Part shown: positions 55,389-64,000 of the stretch, piece after piece
Position numbering within the stretch: the first letter of the stretch is position 1
Layout of the letters: each line of letters opens with the position of its first letter
Source of the DNA: Tetraselmis striata
Lineage: Eukaryota > Chlorophyta > Chlorodendrophyceae > Chlorodendrales > Chlorodendraceae
Length of the DNA: 64,000 nucleotides
Direction: 5' to 3'
NCBI GenBank assembly: GCA_006384855.1
Contig: VCJN01002376.1
Coordinates: 1 to 64,000, forward strand
Notes under the pieces: model-generated
Databases searched by the model: none
What the model was told of the DNA's origin: nothing
What the model saw: only the letters and a program-made list of their open reading frames with translations
Translations under genes and position numbers: made by a program

Positions 55389-56875
55389 GCAGCGTCCGGG
55401 CGTCTGTTGGGACAATGCCATGCTGGGGAAAGAAACCGGCTGCCAGACGTCGGTGTGGCAGCCTGCGCACGTTGGCTACCACCGCCAGGCCTGAATATTC
55501 GCATATTCGCCCCTCCGTTGCCTGCATCGGGAAGGGCACCGCCATGATCTGACCGAGTCAGGCACGCGCGGCCAGGTGACGTTGGTGCAGCGCGACAGGG
55601 ATCAACCAACAAATATACAACATGTAATTATTTGTATCTGACAGCACTTCGATTTCACACTCATAATTCGTACTACTTCACCCTCACATGCGACCTGTGC
55701 CCAACATTGTGAGTGCAAGCATGTATATCCCGTGCAAAAACGTGCACGTGCATTGGCATGTCTTCCAATCAGCAAACACAGCACTGCCCGAACTTCGACA
55801 TACAAGTGTGAAAGAGTCGCCGATATACTGATTAAATGGCTTGCCAAAACCGCGGTTTGTGCACCGCCGGGTGGGGGCCGACTCGGAATGTGCTGTTCTC
55901 ATACACTACATACCGCAGTCACACTGCAGGCCGCGGCACAAACGAATACGAGTCTGGCACCACTGCCCGGGCAGGGAGCTGTTGCAGAGATTGACAGTGA
56001 GCAGACAGGAATTGGGGAATGCATGGCTTTAGTTTTGCGGCTTTGAGCAAAGATGTCCATGAACCTAATCAGTTTATTGGGGCGTACACTGCCCTGCATT
56101 GAATTCAGCCGAGTGGGCGTAACTTCCTGGGTGGGGCGATAGAATGCCTACATATTGTACTGCTGCTTGCCATCCCTGCTGTCAAAGCCTAGGCTCAACA
56201 ATGCGCGTGCGGATAATCATTGCGACAGCCACATATCTGGCATATCAGTTATACGTTATATTTATTCTCTGCGAATCGGATTTGAACGTTGCCGGCTGTG
56301 GGTGGCGCCTCTCACAATCTGGGAGCCTCTGCGCATGTATATGTCATTGCCTGAATTGAAATGAATCGACCGTGACGGTATGATGGATCAGGAGCGCATG
56401 TCCTGGCGTATCTTAGGTGACCTGTAAATAAGAGTGCACGCACGGACGGCACCCGACGGGGATGGATATATTTCTCTGTCAGTGCCCGCAGTGCGGCGCT
56501 GAGCAATGTTGCAGTGCCTCAAGCGGCTGCCCAGGTGTGACTGCTGGTGTGCGCCCGATACGTGGCAAGCTGCAATACAGATGACTGATATAGGTATCGT
56601 TACATGCTGTACAGCAACTTTGGCCTCTGCAGCCGTGCGCCGTGTTCATTCATTATAGTGAATGCTATCTATCGCCACAGTTATTTATCGTGGCGCTCAG
56701 AGTGCTCACTGAAGAAGTCAACGCGTAAACAATGTCGCTCGGCGCTGCCACATCAGGTGAGGGGGGGCTGGAAAATACATCCTGAGCGACATCTACAACT
56801 ATGCAATACAGCGCTACCAATGAATCGTATTAAGAGGGTACAGTATACAGGGAGTCATGGTCGCCAGCCGAGAGC
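55389..56875. other. intergenic stretch between convergent genes
   Basis: Between the 3' ends of the TMEM17-like gene (+) and the LOV gene (-). Several open frames of 60-100 codons exist, but none has a domain, splice support or a neighbour in frame. No repeat shared with the rest of the window was noticed. Confidence 0.5.
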
Positions 56876-58477
56876 CTAGCTGACGACGCCATGAGAGAGA
56901 GCCAGACCAAGCAGGTCGCCGTGGCTGCCCGACTTGGCTGCTGGGTTGTTGAGCAGGCCCAGAGTGTTGCAGCTGATGGACCTGGGGAATCCGCTGGTGA
57001 CTCTGCTCAGGGCTGGGCTTGTAGGCAGCGGCTCGGGCTGCGCCACGCCACGAGGGCTGGAGCACATCGGCGTGCCGGGGGAGCACCCTGCGGCGGACAC
57101 GGCGCCAATGGGACGGAAGGTCTGCAGGCCGACAAAGTGGGTCACCTCGCCACTGCTGTCGCGCAGCGGCAGCAGGGAGAGGTCATTCCACATCGGGGAT
57201 CCGTCCTTGTGGTAGTTCAGTAGACGGACATTCATCGGCATGCCATTTTGAATCTTGCGCTTGAGGGACATGGAGGTGAAGGTTGGCACGCGAGGCTTCC
57301 CAGGAGGCGCCTGCAGGAAGCGGCAGTTCTTGCCCAGAACTTCCTCCTGGCTATAGCCTGACGTGAGCTCAAAGATGGGGTTGGCATACACAATGGGCTG
57401 GTCCTCCTTGCGCGCGTCGGTAATGACAACAGCCGTGCTCTTGGTGTCGAGCATGGTGGTCAGCAGTTGCGACTGGGGGGCGTCCGCCTCCATTGGCCCG
57501 GCCAGCGCCTCGAGCAGAGAGCGTGGCATGTTGCTCGACTGAATCGACAGAGCCGGCAGAGTCAGCACGGGCGTGACGTCGGACTGCGCGGTCGCCTTCG
57601 GCTCTTCGACGCCGGCGACGGACTTCGCCGGCGCGGCCTCGACGGGCTTCGGCGCCGGCTTGGCGGCGGCTACCACCTTTCGCTTGGGCTTGGTCGACTT
57701 GCCGGCGGCCGGCTTCCTGATGCCGGCCAGCGCCTTGAGCGCGGCGCTGGTCGCGTCGGTCGCGCCGCGCTGCACGGTCTGCAGCTCGTTGGCGTACTTC
57801 AGCGGCTTGGAGTACCATCCGTATTTATAGTAGCCGGGAGGCATCGCGCGCACCTCGCTAACGTCGGCGGGCAGAGACGCGCCGCTGGCGACCACAAGAG
57901 TCCCGCTGGGGCAGCGGCCGTGCACAAGAGGTACCGCGCCGCTGGGATCCCGCACCGCTAGCACGCGCACGAGGTGCGAGTCGTAGCAAACAAGGGAGAA
58001 CTGGCCGCGAAGCTTGGCGGGCATCTCCTTGCCAATGGAGCAGTACATGCGGCAGAGCAGCTGCGCGGCGGAGACTGGCGCCGCGGCTTTAATTTCGTTC
58101 AGCCCTTTCCATGCCACAGCCTTGCAGTCCTCGTCGTCGGAGCAGAACTTCTTCACAAGGTAGGCGTAATTCTCCAGGTGGCCACGGAACACTGTCATCA
58201 CCCCGTTCTCGCTGGCGTGGCTGTGCTCGTCGCGGGGAAGGGCGCCGGGAGCGCGTGCGAGGGCGCCACCGGGCAGGTGGGCGTATTTGTACTCAGTACG
58301 AGTACGCGCCTCGCCGGCACCTGCACCATCCTCGAGCAGAAGCTCCAACTCGTGCTGCAAGCGGTCGCGCGGGTCGCCACGAACAACGTGTCCGTCCTCG
58401 CCAAAGTCGACGCTCTTGGGCGGGCAGAGCAGTACGAAGCTCCCGTGAGAGGGGGTAGTTGCGGGCGGCAGAGTCAT
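56876..58477 (-). CDS. LOV photoreceptor fused to a DUF3700/AILP1-like amidotransferase-fold domain
   Basis: Single exon, 533 aa, stop TAG. Residues about 93-222 resemble the DUF3700 (AILP1/TSJT1) family, a class II glutamine amidotransferase-like Ntn fold: VFRGHLENYAYLVKKF, LRGQFSLVCYD and VLAVRDPSGAVPLVHG. No Cys follows the initiator Met, so amidase activity is doubtful, as in plant AILP proteins. A Lys/Pro/Ala-rich linker (about 240-330) leads to a LOV domain at 347-457 with GKNCRFLQ (Cys385, the flavin adduct residue), NYHKDG (Asn421), Asn431 and Gln452, the usual FMN contacts. The FLQAPPGK loop recalls fungal White Collar-type LOV domains. A Ser-rich tail follows. Likely a soluble blue-light receptor whose effector is the N-terminal domain. 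It is intronless among intron-rich neighbours. Confidence 0.85.
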   Translation of the reverse strand: MTLPPATTPSHGSFVLLCPPKSVDFGEDGHVVRGDPRDRLQHELELLLEDGAGAGEARTRTEYKYAHLPGGALARAPGALPRDEHSHASENGVMTVFRGHLENYAYLVKKFCSDDEDCKAVAWKGLNEIKAAAPVSAAQLLCRMYCSIGKEMPAKLRGQFSLVCYDSHLVRVLAVRDPSGAVPLVHGRCPSGTLVVASGASLPADVSEVRAMPPGYYKYGWYSKPLKYANELQTVQRGATDATSAALKALAGIRKPAAGKSTKPKRKVVAAAKPAPKPVEAAPAKSVAGVEEPKATAQSDVTPVLTLPALSIQSSNMPRSLLEALAGPMEADAPQSQLLTTMLDTKSTAVVITDARKEDQPIVYANPIFELTSGYSQEEVLGKNCRFLQAPPGKPRVPTFTSMSLKRKIQNGMPMNVRLLNYHKDGSPMWNDLSLLPLRDSSGEVTHFVGLQTFRPIGAVSAAGCSPGTPMCSSPRGVAQPEPLPTSPALSRVTSGFPRSISCNTLGLLNNPAAKSGSHGDLLGLALSHGVVS

Positions 58478-59654
58478 CGGAGGGCGGGGATTGTGGCGCG
58501 TAGGTATGAGTCAGCACAAATATTACTTGCAGTCCCGAGACCGTGTCGTCGCGAGGGCGAGCTGCAGCACCAGTTGCGGCAGCTGAGACCGGCCGAAACT
58601 TCAGCTCCAGCACCCGCAGATGCTTTTGCGATCAGGACAGCTAATTCTCTTGTCGCGAGTGCAGCCGGCTGGGAAGGGGGGAAACAGGTAGGGAAAGACG
58701 GGCTGTGAAGGGGGGACGTGTTCCGCAACTGGTTGCCTCGCCACCCGCCGCGTGCATTTATTGATTTACAAGACGCGTCACGCACGGAGGCAATCCTCCT
58801 CCTCCCAGTGCGCCTCTTGAGCCGCCTCGCGCGCTTGATTTTTTTTTCGCTCGCCTGATAAGGATAAATCCTTTCCTTTGTACGCGAGTATGATGTTGCA
58901 TTGCTTTATTGCTGACGCGGCCGCGCACCATCTCCCAGCGTGCACAATTTTGTGATATAGCACAATTTTATGTACTATATCAGATGCAATACAGCCTAAC
59001 TAAATAAGCCCTACGCCTGATGAGGTGGCTGGCACGTGCCACGTCGCCGTCAGTACTACTTGTACCAGTACCACGTACGGCGGCGGCTTCCCGAGTTGAT
59101 TTTTTAGTACTACTTTCAGCAGTGAATTTGTCATTCAGGACCCTAATGATTGTCCCTTTTTTTTTGGTGATTCCCTGATTCCTTCTGCTGCTAGCTCATG
59201 TAAATTTGTCATTGCCCTTCTTGTAATTCAAACCAGTACCCGTACCACGTATAAGGACAGTCGTACTGATAGTACTGGCATAAAGTAGTAGTACAGTGTC
59301 AGCAGTGTCGTCGACTCGTCAACTCGGCACGCAGTTGTCATCATAGATAGTCTTTTTGGTTACAGATAGTGGTGATGGGTATGGTTGCACGGGGACGTTA
59401 CACGGAGTCTCGCTCTGCTTGCGTGCATGGTACCTTGGGCGGCATTCTCTCTACCGCAATGCAGACAGTCTGATGCGTTTGCCCGTGCTCATTCCGCACC
59501 CTCTTCCGGTGCTGCTTCCACCTCGCAACTGATGTAGTGGAAGTTTCCTATTGCCTATTCGGGTGGTTTCCTGATCGCCTTTTGCAGCTAAAAACCCGTA
59601 ACTAATACACGGGGACGGGGACACGGGGTAGACTCGGGCGAAGGCAAAAAGTAC
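58478..59654. other. intergenic region with LINE-tail-like repeats
   Basis: Upstream of the LOV gene (its promoter should be here) and left of the recombinase element. Bases 59144-59210 match the inverted sequence at about 25535-25600 (GCTGCTAGCTCATGTAA), and 59545-59600 matches 25416-25470 (CCTATTCGGGTGGTTTCCTG). No gene was found. Confidence 0.5.
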
Positions 59655-59840
59655 TGATCTAAACTAGTTTATGGGGTTTCCATCCTTGACCTAACCGCTT
59701 TTTAGCTACAAGTGCTGCTCAGTGGTACGGGAACTAGTAACTGTTGTTGCGCCCTTGTTGGGTGCAGCACGAGTAGACATAAAAGCAGCCAGAACAGCTG
59801 AGCCTGCCATCTTCCAGTTTTCGCTGCGTTCCACGCAGCG
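59655..59840 (+). repeat. left direct repeat of the recombinase element
   Basis: Starts TGATCTAAACTAGTTTATGG and ends TTCCACGCAGCG. It contains GTTGTTGCGCCCTTGTTGGG and GCATGTCT-free pyrimidine-rich stretches; the gag-like start codon follows 114 bp after its end, so promoter elements may lie inside it. Confidence 0.85.
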
Positions 59841-59953
59841 ATGTAAAAACTGTCTCGTAACCCGTTGCGAGCAAGGTCACCCCAGGTTGTTCAAGACCAC
59901 ACCCGGCTCGCCATCCGAGTGTGATATTCTCGTCCGTACGTCCGTGCGTTACT

Positions 59954-60808
59954 ATGTCAGATGGAGAAGAACCCGTCGTTGAGCCGACGCTCAAGTCGTT
60001 GCAAGCAGATGTGCGTGCATTGGCTACAGTTGTGGCACAATTGACGGCTCGTGATCGCGTTGTTGATGGAGAAGGGGCACATGGCTCCAGCTCAGGGCAG
60101 CGCTTCGCGGGACAGCCGACAGGCAGCGGGGGAGCCGCAGAGCGCCCCGACTTGCTAGAGCTAGCCCAGAGCGGCCGTGTCGGAGCAAAATCCGTGAGTG
60201 CCGAGGATGATTACCTCGCGGTGCCAGAGCTACTGCAGAGAGCAGAGTCTGGTTACGAGGCCGTTCGACCGGTCAGCCGAGTGCCTGGACTTTTCCCTTT
60301 GAGCACCGACCTAACGAACGAGTACCTCAAGCAGGATGACCGGCGTCTGCCGGCCCAGGAGGAGTACTTGTGGATGTCGTGTTTCGGGGCCCACATGGCC
60401 GCCCTTTTCGTGGCACTCGACGAGCTACCGCCCTACGTCCCTTCCACCAACCAGGACTTCACCCCCTACCTCGCGAGAGCTCGGAACCACGCCGAGGCCA
60501 TCGACAAGGCGTTTCGGTTTCGTTTGGCCTTCCTGCGGAGGCTAAATGAGATCAAGCGTGTGCATGGTGACCAAGGTGTTCTGGATGTGCTGCGAGCCCA
60601 GCATTTTCAGCCCTCTTCTCAGCACCTGGGTTCCGCGATTTTTGGGGACCTCATGCGGGACTACGAGCGTCGTGTCTTCGAGGCGACCATTGCCAGCAGC
60701 GCCAAGGCGACCGCTACTTCTCGAGTGGCGGCTGCAGCTGCAGGTCGCGGGCGCGGGCGAGGACGTGGCGGCGGACGTGGACGTGGTCGCGAAGGTGAGC
60801 ACGAGTGA
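59954..60808 (+). CDS. gag-like protein of the recombinase element
   Basis: 284 aa from ATG 59954 (MSDGEEPVVEPTLKS). A short coiled-coil-like segment (LQADVRALATVVAQL) precedes a folded-looking middle (NEYLKQDDRRLPAQEEYLWM, YLARARNHAEAIDKAFRFRL), and the protein ends in an Arg-Gly-rich tail, typical of nucleic-acid binding. The frame is intact. This layout (coil, helical core, basic tail) matches structural proteins of DIRS-type elements, and it precedes the recombinase by 36 bp. No enzyme motif is present. Confidence 0.65.
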   Translation: MSDGEEPVVEPTLKSLQADVRALATVVAQLTARDRVVDGEGAHGSSSGQRFAGQPTGSGGAAERPDLLELAQSGRVGAKSVSAEDDYLAVPELLQRAESGYEAVRPVSRVPGLFPLSTDLTNEYLKQDDRRLPAQEEYLWMSCFGAHMAALFVALDELPPYVPSTNQDFTPYLARARNHAEAIDKAFRFRLAFLRRLNEIKRVHGDQGVLDVLRAQHFQPSSQHLGSAIFGDLMRDYERRVFEATIASSAKATATSRVAAAAAGRGRGRGRGGGRGRGREGEHE

Positions 60809-60844
60809 CGGTGTGGGGCGCCTTTCGCCGGAGCTGCAGGAGCC

Positions 60845-62550
60845 TTGCGAGGCCACCTTTCGGTGACCGCCGCAAGACGTACCCTTGCAGCTCAACGGCG
60901 GGATGAGCGCCCTGTGTCAGGACCTGACCCCCCCACCTTACAGACTTCATTTAGACCTTCCTCGGTGCGGCGCTTCTTACAGCTACAGCCGAGTGCGGCT
61001 CAACCATCCGCACGCCTGCACATGGCGGCTCAACCATCCGCCTTTCTTACCACCCCATCTCCGCGTTCGTCGGTTGTTACACTACGTGTTACAACCGGTT
61101 CGCAACGACCAAGTTTCGCGCGTGTACGTTACGCACGTGACAGGCGCTATGAGCGCGAAGGGCGCGCGGGGCGGCCCTCTTACCTGAACCTAGCCCCGCA
61201 AACCCGTACTGGAGCTACTGCAAACCCGTCCAGCAACTACCGGCCAACTGCCGGGAACCTAACTGTTGCTGCCGAGTACTTTGCGAACAGTAGCCGTGCC
61301 GGTGGAACTTTGTCAGTAAAACGACGCACTTACGTAATTGACGAGCCCGCAGCTATCGCTCCGTGGGCTGCGTCACTGCGATCTCGACTACAGGACGCGT
61401 TCGGCTCAGACGAGCTAGGCCAGCGGACACTCGACCTGCTCTCCAGCTCCCTCAGCGCTCAGACCCTCAAGAGCTACGCCGGCCGGTTGTCTCAGTTCGC
61501 TGAGTTCTGCCACGACTCCGAGAACATCAGCCCGCTGGAAGCGACTACTGCTACTGTTGTTCGGTACGTTGCCTGGATCGGGGAGCGAGGGCACATCGCA
61601 GCTAAGTCGCTGCAGCCCTACCTGTCTGCCATCAACACCTTCTTCGAGCTGCACAACCTCGTCCCGATCGCCAAGGACAGCCTACACCTCACTTCGGCAC
61701 GACGCGGGTTAATGTTGCGTCAGCGCCGACTGGACGCTGCCCCTTTACGTGTCCCTCTGCCTGCGGATGTGGCTTACCGCTTCGTCTCAAAGGCCGAGCT
61801 AATTGTGTCTGCTCCTTACCCAGAGTCCCACCTCGACTACCGAGCCCTCTTGGCCTCGGTTGTCAACTTCCTGTTCTTTGCCAGGGGCCTTACTGGCGTC
61901 TCCTGTCGAGTGCAAGATGTGCATGTCAACACCTACAACATCACCTTGCAGATCTACCGCGAGAAGGGTCGCGCTGGCCGGCGGGGACCCGACGACCTGC
62001 GCGTACTTCTCCTTCCTGTGTCCGAGCACCCTCGAGTGGCACGTCTCTTGCGCTACTTCATCGACAACGTCCAGTCTGTCCCCCTGGTTACTGTTGGCTT
62101 GGCTGCCTCCAACTTCTGGGCTGTCAATGTGGCTGAGCAGTCAAAACCTTGGACTGCGGCTACGATGTCAGACTGGTTGTCCACCGCAGTCAACCTAGTC
62201 AACGCTGCCCCCCTGCTGGCACATCCTGGACTTCACACAGTCTACGCAAGGGCGCAGCCTCTGCAGCAAACGCCATCGGAGCACCACTGTCCCACATCCG
62301 CTATCAGGGCGGTTGGGCCACTAACTCTGATGTCGTTATGGACTACATCGACCCCAACGTTCTTCCTTCTCATGGCGCGTGGTTCTTCTTTGGACACATC
62401 GCCCCCCTCCGCCACTTCCAAGTCCAACATACAGGACTCCGCAGCGGTGGCCTTCCCAGTGCCTCCCTCATGACTTGGCGCTACCCCTTCTCCGTCAATC
62501 TACCGCTCTCTACGTTCGCTCAAGACTGGCAAAACCAGACTCAACTTTGA
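60845..62550 (+). pseudogene. tyrosine recombinase of the element, one frameshift
   Basis: The frame is open from 60845 to 62473; its first in-frame ATG is 61022, so it may start there or be made by coupled translation after the gag-like stop. An N-terminal domain (LKSYAGRLSQFAEFCHD, LQPYLSAINTFFELH) is followed by the catalytic Arg region (FLFFARGLTGVSC). At a C6 run near 62210 the reading must shift: the H-x-x-R box (TSHSLRKGA), GGWATNS and the Tyr region (MDYIDPNVLP) are in the next frame, ending at TGA about 62550. A one-base indel in a C homopolymer is the simplest cause and could be a sequencing error. If so, the enzyme would be complete. Confidence 0.75.
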
Positions 62551-62552
62551 AA

Positions 62553-62733
62553 TGATCTAAACTAGTTTATGGGGTTTCCATCCTTGACCGCTTTTTAGCT
62601 ACAACTGCTGCTCAGTGGTACGGGAACTAGTAACTGTTGTTGCGCCCTTGTTGGGTGCAGCACGAGTAGACATAAAAGCAGCCATAACAGCTGAGCCTGC
62701 CATCTTCCAGTTTTCGCTGCGTTCCACGCAGCG
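62553..62733 (+). repeat. right direct repeat of the recombinase element
   Basis: The second copy of 59655-59840. It lacks the five bases CTAAC after CCATCCTTGAC and has a few substitutions (AACTGCTG for AAGTGCTG; CATAACAG for CAGAACAG). It follows the recombinase stop at once. Confidence 0.85.
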
Positions 62734-64000
62734 CCCCGCCGGCAGGCAGGGCCGCAGGCGCGGGCGGGCCGGGGACAGATGCTGAGTACAATATAGCGTC
62801 GATCGAGCGATGCTGATGAGTACGGGTACGGGATGGCGAGATGGGTGGCGTGCTGACGCTATTATCTCCCTACTACAGTATGTATAGATCCTGATGCGAG
62901 CGCGGTAGTCGCCAGCGCGACCAATGAATGGCAAGCGGTAGCGTCATCCCTAGGGTGAGTGAGATATTAATGGCGTTATTGGCAGTGGTTTCAAGGCACA
63001 CACAAGGCACATACAGGCGGTATCTCATAGTACATATCATAGAGACCCATCACGCGGGGCAGATATCACGCGGACGTGTTGACGAGGATGGCCAGATTAT
63101 TTTGACGCGTGCGCTATCGATTTTTTTTTGACTCGTGCTCGTCCCGATTTACTCATCTCGATTTCTTAATACGCAATGATGATACACTAGACATCAACAA
63201 GCATGATACACTAGACTCCAGATTTTTTGGCAAGTTGCAACACTCCAGGGATAGTAGTTGGTACATTGGTTGTCCGCTCGGTTGGCTCCGACGTACCGAC
63301 CGTTACTCGACCAAATAGGCGGATGAAACGCGAGTGATTTGCTGGTCACTCGCTGAGGTCCAGAGGCGTGCCTAGGGAATTCCCAGGAAAACGGGAAATT
63401 CCCGGAAATTCCCGATCGCCAAAAAATAATAGGGAATTCCCGGGAATCCCTAGGGAATTCCTAGGTACCGGCACTCGGTACCGGCTCAGGGGCCAAGGCC
63501 GTCAATGTGATGCAGACATGCATTTCCCAGGCACGTAGGGATGTCATTTTAAAACTATTTATCCCGTGAGCACTACTGTGGCTAGCGCATTAATGCAAAG
63601 CGCATGCATGTGGAGCAGTCGAGCATAGCAGGCTGTAATACCGGCCGGGGCCGGGCCAGGGCGGGGCGGCGCGGGGCGGGGCGGATGCGCAAGCGGCCGG
63701 CTGGCCGGCATGGCCGGAAGGGATGACGGCGGGGTAACGGTATCTGTCCCGGACTCAGGCTGTCGTCAAGCCTCAGGCCCTCAATGCCCGTGGCCGGGCT
63801 GAACAACCTTGTTTACAGCTTGTAGGATGACAGTGGTCCGCCCGTTGGTTGCATGCCTACATGTGCAGTAGGGGGTCGAGAGACGGCTGAAATAGTGACA
63901 GTTTCATAAGGCAGTCGCTGCATCCGTCACTTGACGGCCGCTGGCGGGCATGCGCTCGACAGCATGGACTCGTGTTGGCTGGGTTTGTGATAGTCGCGCC
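62734..64000. other. intergenic end of the window
   Basis: No gene recognised. It contains the GGAATTCCC palindrome cluster at 63375-63466 and GC-rich tracts near 62735-62775 and 63640-63720 with repeated GGGGCGG. Several short frames lack support. Confidence 0.5.
63375..63466. repeat. cluster of GGGAATTCCC-type palindromes
   Basis: In 92 bases there are about seven full or half copies of GGAATTCCC, GGGAAATTCCC and CCTAGGGAATTCC. The stretch is close to self-complementary overall and could form a hairpin or bind a dimeric protein. No gene is near. Confidence 0.7.

Follow-up and report, generated by a model that had tools for sequence, protein, structure and literature searches.

Gene and reading frame

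The window, that is, the whole stretch of 64,000 nucleotides that was analysed, comprises bases 1-64000 of contig C1917 (the assembly has 224 Mb in 2903 contigs). Its minus strand carries an open reading frame of 533 amino acids at 56876..58477, with the ATG at 58477 and a stop codon that ends at 56876; in-frame stops lie close upstream of the ATG. These coordinates had been given correctly in a preliminary description of the window, which named no strand. It had also described one uninterrupted and intronless frame that joins a glutamine amidotransferase (GATase)-type domain to a LOV domain. The 533-aa frame is indeed intronless and contains both. On contig C1158 lies a second copy, in which the two ends of the protein are again in one frame. 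Over the same stretch the five remaining frames are interrupted by 3, 12, 16, 14 and 7 stops, which, together with the equal length of the second copy, marks the frame as more than a product of chance.

The protein starts with an N-terminal region (residues 1-92, 58202..58477 on the minus strand, as are all features given here), in which residues 1-79 have no Pfam match. A domain of the class-II glutamine amidotransferase (Ntn) type, DUF3700-like (residues 93-222, 57812..58201), is recognized by Pfam, NCBIfam and profile matches. It is separated by a Lys/Ala/Pro-rich linker (residues 223-340, 57458..57811, no Pfam match) from the LOV domain (residues 341-460, 57098..57457), which is identified by Pfam and PDB matches and by its place in a tree, and which contains Cys385 in the motif GKNCRFLQ. 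The linker includes a basic stretch, KPKRKVV, a possible nuclear signal. A Ser/Pro-rich tail (residues 461-533, 56879..57097), again with no Pfam match and identical in the two copies, completes the protein. About 270 bases past the stop lies TGTAA (56600..56604), a possible polyadenylation signal of the green-algal type; as a five-base word with one occurrence in 1.9 kb, this candidate is weak evidence.

Comparison of the two copies

The copy on C1158 has an identical frame length and differs at 11 of 1602 bases, with 0 gap columns. Ten codons are changed, seven of them synonymously and three non-synonymously, and the three resulting amino acid differences (residues 272, 279 and 286) all fall in the linker. 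Of the 390 bases that encode the GATase-type domain 3 differ, none of them altering an amino acid, and of the 582 that encode the LOV domain and the tail none differs. In the flanks 26 of 1157 aligned bases differ upstream and 40 of 1870 downstream (2.1-2.3%), with 59 and 119 gap columns respectively. When only matches longer than 300 bases are counted, the first 40 kb of C1158 superimpose on C1917:1-84000 in ten collinear blocks (92.5-97.7% identity), starting from C1917 position 50704. Insertions are found on either side of this collinearity, and one extra match, of 79%, is a mobile element. Collinear blocks with insertions on both sides fit two haplotypes, and the C1158 copy is probably the other haplotype. 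The preservation of the frame on C1158, with fewer changes than in the flanks and with amino acid changes confined to the linker, argues for one gene; a chance frame or decay would be hard to reconcile with this comparison. The changes between the copies are few, so finer statements about selection are unwarranted.

LOV domain

The LOV domain that had been placed at residues 347-457 is confirmed by Pfam PAS_9 at 350-451 (53.5 bits, 3.3e-14, cut-off 27). GKNCRFLQ preserves the adduct cysteine, Cys385, and the CRFLQ motif, as had been noticed before. The accompanying claim that all flavin-contact residues are in place goes a little too far, although most of them are. Among those that we take to be flavin-contact or flavin-near positions, Asn421, Asn431 and Gln452 are present, whereas Lys406 aligns with an Arg, the second one, in the phototropin and ZTL rows and Gln360 with the Asn of 'DNPI' in oat LOV2, where ZTL likewise has Gln. 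Read from the alignment, the substitutions at Lys406 and Gln360 could mean that LOV photochemistry has been lost despite Cys385.

The best PDB match of the LOV domain is a bacterial LOV histidine kinase [9vf7, 116.3 bits, 2.4e-31]; Arabidopsis ADAGIO 1/ZTL [6wle] scores 95.9 bits, and the phototropin entries among the matches listed score about 77-84. The NCBIfam YtvA LOV family matches the whole protein at 106.7 bits (1.3e-30), far under its full-length cut-off. The likeness to 9vf7 and the YtvA family consists of the best pairwise match and a profile match; unlike them, the window protein has no kinase or STAS match, and 9vf7 does not have the longer loop that follows CRFLQ in the window protein. 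By our count this loop exceeds that of phototropin LOV2 by 4 residues and is 5 shorter than in ZTL. ZEITLUPE/ADAGIO proteins share with the window LOV domain the DQPI motif, a KDGSP stretch and an extended loop behind CRFLQ in which some of the residues are similar, but their loop exceeds that of phototropin by 9 residues rather than 4. Neither F-box nor Kelch has a Pfam match in the whole protein or in the tail.

A tree of 12 LOV rows places the window domain outside a phototropin-type clade (98/98) that consists of two plant phototropin LOV2 domains together with three LOV domains of this genome, C1378 LOV2, C932 LOV1 and C932 LOV2; C1378 LOV1 is not among the 12 rows. The window domain lies near ZTL and some bacterial LOV domains, with no further resolution (four of nine inner branches are starred, and ZTL is a long branch); a 94/92 split separates it from 9vf7, which groups on the side of the phototropins. 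Derivation from the alga's own phototropin was considered and is held unlikely, since the tree keeps the window domain out of the clade that holds three of the genome's phototropin-type LOV domains. A LOV scan of genome contigs gave 34 PAS/LOV loci, all in bacterial records; three of them (L051-L053) were used, as LOV or PAS fragments only.

Other LOV and PAS genes were seen in the course of the analysis. C1378 and C932 carry phototropin-like genes, the kinase starts being by our reading. The gene at C932:83000-86500 (L032, L034, L038) has two LOV domains and then a third PAS/LOV-like domain without the adduct Cys (GRHPRMLL), followed by an apparent kinase-domain start. C379 and C1958 (L016, L020) have frames in which a nearly identical PAS unit is repeated in tandem about three to four times, and the frames on the two contigs resemble each other.

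N-terminal domain

The preliminary description had assigned residues 93-222 to a DUF3700/AILP1-like domain and had proposed a Pfam search of both domains. This search puts GATase_7, like PAS_9, over its cut-off [32.8 bits, 7.9e-8, residues 138-199, cut-off 25], but leaves DUF3700 (PF12481) under it [23.0 bits, residues 83-198, cut-off 27]; GATase_6 is also under (25.2 bits, cut-off 27). With the isolated N-terminal fragment the scores rise to 36.2 for GATase_7, 28.0 for GATase_6 (now over) and 26.7 for DUF3700 (just under 27). The highest NCBIfam match of the fragment is asparagine synthase B [NF006949, 41.3 bits, 7.1e-11], far under a cut-off of 499 bits that is set for full-length members. 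In the PDB, the asparagine synthetase B structure 1ct9 is reached at no better than 0.0095 by the N-terminal 334 residues alone and at 1.7e-8 by a five-sequence profile that includes the window domain.

The genome's own DUF3700-like genes appear to be the nearest relatives among the proteins that we compared. The DUF3700 model has at least 11 matches in the assembly, four of which (C1214, C1648, C1300 and C1103) are over the cut-off; by our reading, C1300 and C1103 are probably two haplotypes, and so are C1180 and C1376. With a search space of 20000, a profile built from four such genes (hand-picked exon pieces, the window protein left out) reaches 2.4e-7 over residues 87-215 of the window protein. 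Of six assembly proteins that were compared directly, C1214 is the best match (22.7 bits, 7.4e-5), C1648 scores 14.2 bits (0.03, below the inclusion line), the PurF-like frame L086 scores 7.0 and L085, L087 and L094 gave no reported match; three of the four non-DUF3700 frames in this set look bacterial. Of 14 prokaryote genomes used as controls, 7 also contain matches to the DUF3700 model, and in 5 these exceed the cut-off, so that a match to it cannot by itself tell the family from the remaining class-II GATases.

The assignment is therefore retained in part. The profile match at 87-215 and the first rank of C1214 among the six speak for it; the sub-threshold DUF3700 score, the limited specificity of the Pfam model and the higher score of the asparagine synthase B profile speak against it. 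The N-terminal domain is, to judge by these alignments, a class-II GATase relative that is nearest here to DUF3700-like genes. The name 'DUF3700-like' is fair, since the domain seems nearest to those genes yet falls below the DUF3700 cut-off, and membership is unproven. The Pfam model of DUF3700/AILP1, the plant 'aluminium-induced' proteins, aligns with residues 83-198, and stretches of the 'FRG.L' and 'RDP.G..PL' type are common to the window protein and the genome's DUF3700-like genes. The gene model on C1214 starts with MLAVF, has one intron, scores 43.4 bits with DUF3700 and has no PAS match; the DUF3700-like gene on C1648 also starts with MLAVF. The window protein differs from this family in its lower score, the absence of an MLAVF start, the fusion to LOV and the lack of an intron. 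To the GATase domain of asparagine synthetase B (PF13537, NF006949) it is linked by the top NCBIfam match of its N-terminal fragment and by the best PDB match (1ct9), but it has neither a Cys at position 2 nor a synthetase domain.

Catalytic positions

Class-II glutamine amidotransferases need a catalytic Cys at position 2. The window protein begins MTLPPATT and has no Cys there. A missed upstream exon supplying it was sought as a start peptide of the form M[L/C][A/G/S][V/I]F on the minus strand from 58478 to 64000; none was found, and an upstream exon with a start of this form was rejected. The missing Cys fits the DUF3700-like relatives, as C1214 and C1648 start with MLAVF rather than MC.

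AlphaFold models (mean pLDDT 37.0 and 40.9) are too poor to use for the fold, so that both the fold and the catalytic positions rest on sequence alignment. By our reading, FRGH (residues 97-100) occupies the place of the asparagine synthetase 'NGE', with the counterparts FRGR in C1214, FRGD in C1648 and FSGE in C1300; the pairing of FRGH with FRGR is found in the profile alignment only, MAFFT having placed FRGH elsewhere. The reference residues, with catalytic roles, are Asn74, Glu76 and Asp98 of asparagine synthetase B (AsnB). Again by our reading, Arg98, His100 and Ala137 would replace these three; the AsnB alignment covers residues 138-219, and positions outside it were assigned by eye. The N-terminal domain is probably a pseudo-enzyme whose glutamine-binding residues have apparently been replaced, and an active glutaminase appears very unlikely from the same positions.

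Occurrence of the domain pairing

Among the matches listed, C1917 and C1158 are the only contigs that carry PAS_9 together with DUF3700 or GATase_7. Assembly-wide there are at least 49 matches to PAS_9, at least 11 to DUF3700 and at least 14 to GATase_7, counts in which exons missed at first look would not show. Viral contigs searched with the whole protein, with the LOV domain alone and with the GATase part alone contained no relatives.

Among known photoreceptors, aureochromes have an N-terminal effector and a C-terminal LOV domain. The window protein has this order in common with them, and its LOV domain matches theirs at about 80-84 bits; unlike aureochromes, it has no Pfam match to bZIP. 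A census of LOV domains has reportedly been made by Glantz et al. in 2016.

It had been noted earlier that no described pairing of LOV with this fold was known. Among the papers searched none pairs DUF3700 with a LOV domain, although the architecture may have been listed before. No paper was found that combines a LOV domain, a glutamine amidotransferase and an alga, and the pairing of LOV with GATase is absent among the matches listed in further literature searches. The main text of one review (PMC12558739) has neither 'amidotransferase' nor 'asparagine synth'. The only case among the matches listed in which both subjects occur is PMC9026532, where LOV domain and asparagine synth are mentioned once each.

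Proposed function

We consider it moderately probable that the gene encodes a blue-light receptor, of probable green-algal origin, in which the effector precedes the sensor and a non-catalytic binding module is switched by light. The LOV domain would bind flavin, and blue light would form the Cys385-flavin adduct. The change would reach the N-terminal domain by way of the pre-LOV stretch and the linker, which is flexible and basic, a likely path because the Ser/Pro-rich tail after LOV has no Pfam match. The N-terminal domain should release no ammonia, as it lacks the Cys at position 2 and its glutamine-binding and activating residues are apparently replaced; it would act instead as a non-catalytic binding module for a partner protein or a small ligand. 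Light would switch the accessibility or the dimerization of this module, perhaps in the nucleus. More tentatively, LOV may switch a pseudo-glutamine-amidotransferase that has kept the ability to bind a partner enzyme or a ligand resembling an amino acid, such that a single protein reads both light and nitrogen or stress status.

A different division of labour, in which the LOV domain and the tail alone produce the output by light-dependent dimerization or partner binding and the GATase-type domain is a structural cap with no part in signalling, is possible but rather unlikely. The complete identity of the LOV and tail stretch in the two copies and the far divergence of the GATase-type domain from its profiles would suit it, but that domain is likewise free of amino acid changes between the copies. 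That the LOV domain responds to flavin or to redox state instead of light is improbable: the substitutions at Gln360 and Lys406 point in this direction, but Cys385 and CRFLQ are intact, the domain is identical in both copies and the Gln of 'DQPI' is shared by ZTL, which is a photoreceptor. We regard chance, a pseudogene or an assembly-fused frame as very improbable; the intronless frame might suggest one of these, but the 533-aa frame is found, with no gap column, in two collinear copies on separate contigs, which differ less here than in the flanks and whose amino acid changes are confined to the linker. Least probable of all is an active light-gated glutamine amidotransferase or glutaminase, which the GATase_7 and asparagine synthase B matches would favour but which is opposed by the missing Cys at position 2, the lack of an upstream start of the M[L/C][A/G/S][V/I]F type and the residues read at the three AsnB places.

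DUF3700-like proteins of plants respond to stress and hormones, and to our knowledge they have no agreed biochemical role. Should the more tentative reading, of a pseudo-amidotransferase with a retained ligand or partner enzyme, prove correct, the DUF3700-like fold would gain its first direct input signal, and blue-light receptors of a new class would be represented by this protein. With a light sensor naturally fused to it, the role of the fold would become testable, a light-induced change pointing to its function. LOV proteins would also gain a further type of effector, and optogenetics a candidate part.

Origin of the gene and the contig

Retroposition or transfer had been suggested earlier for the LOV gene, and both are conjectural. 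Retroposition is possible, given that the C1214 gene model has an intron and the 533-aa frame has none, but the 376 bases behind the stop contain no poly-A tract. The genome is probably that of a green alga, to judge by its phototropin-like genes and a DUF3700 gene of plant type, with weak support from the TGTAA behind the stop. The collinear copy and an adjoining mobile element suggest that the contig belongs to the nuclear genome of the alga. Bacterial contigs seem to be present in the assembly. By our reading, bacterial-looking frames occur on C695, C2058, C1694, C2280, C1804, C145, C731 and C2487, and their types include PAS-GGDEF-EAL, histidine kinase, asparagine synthase, PurF and GFAT.

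A 3.1-kb stretch of the window (59656-62734), some 1.2 kb upstream of where the LOV gene starts, is missing from the collinear place in C1158, and is for this reason probably a mobile-element insertion in one haplotype. It contains a frame of 295 aa with no Pfam match and one of 542 aa with a tyrosine-recombinase-type SAM-like domain (Phage_int_SAM_1, 7.5e-8). A stretch with 79% similarity lies at C1158:16039-18191.
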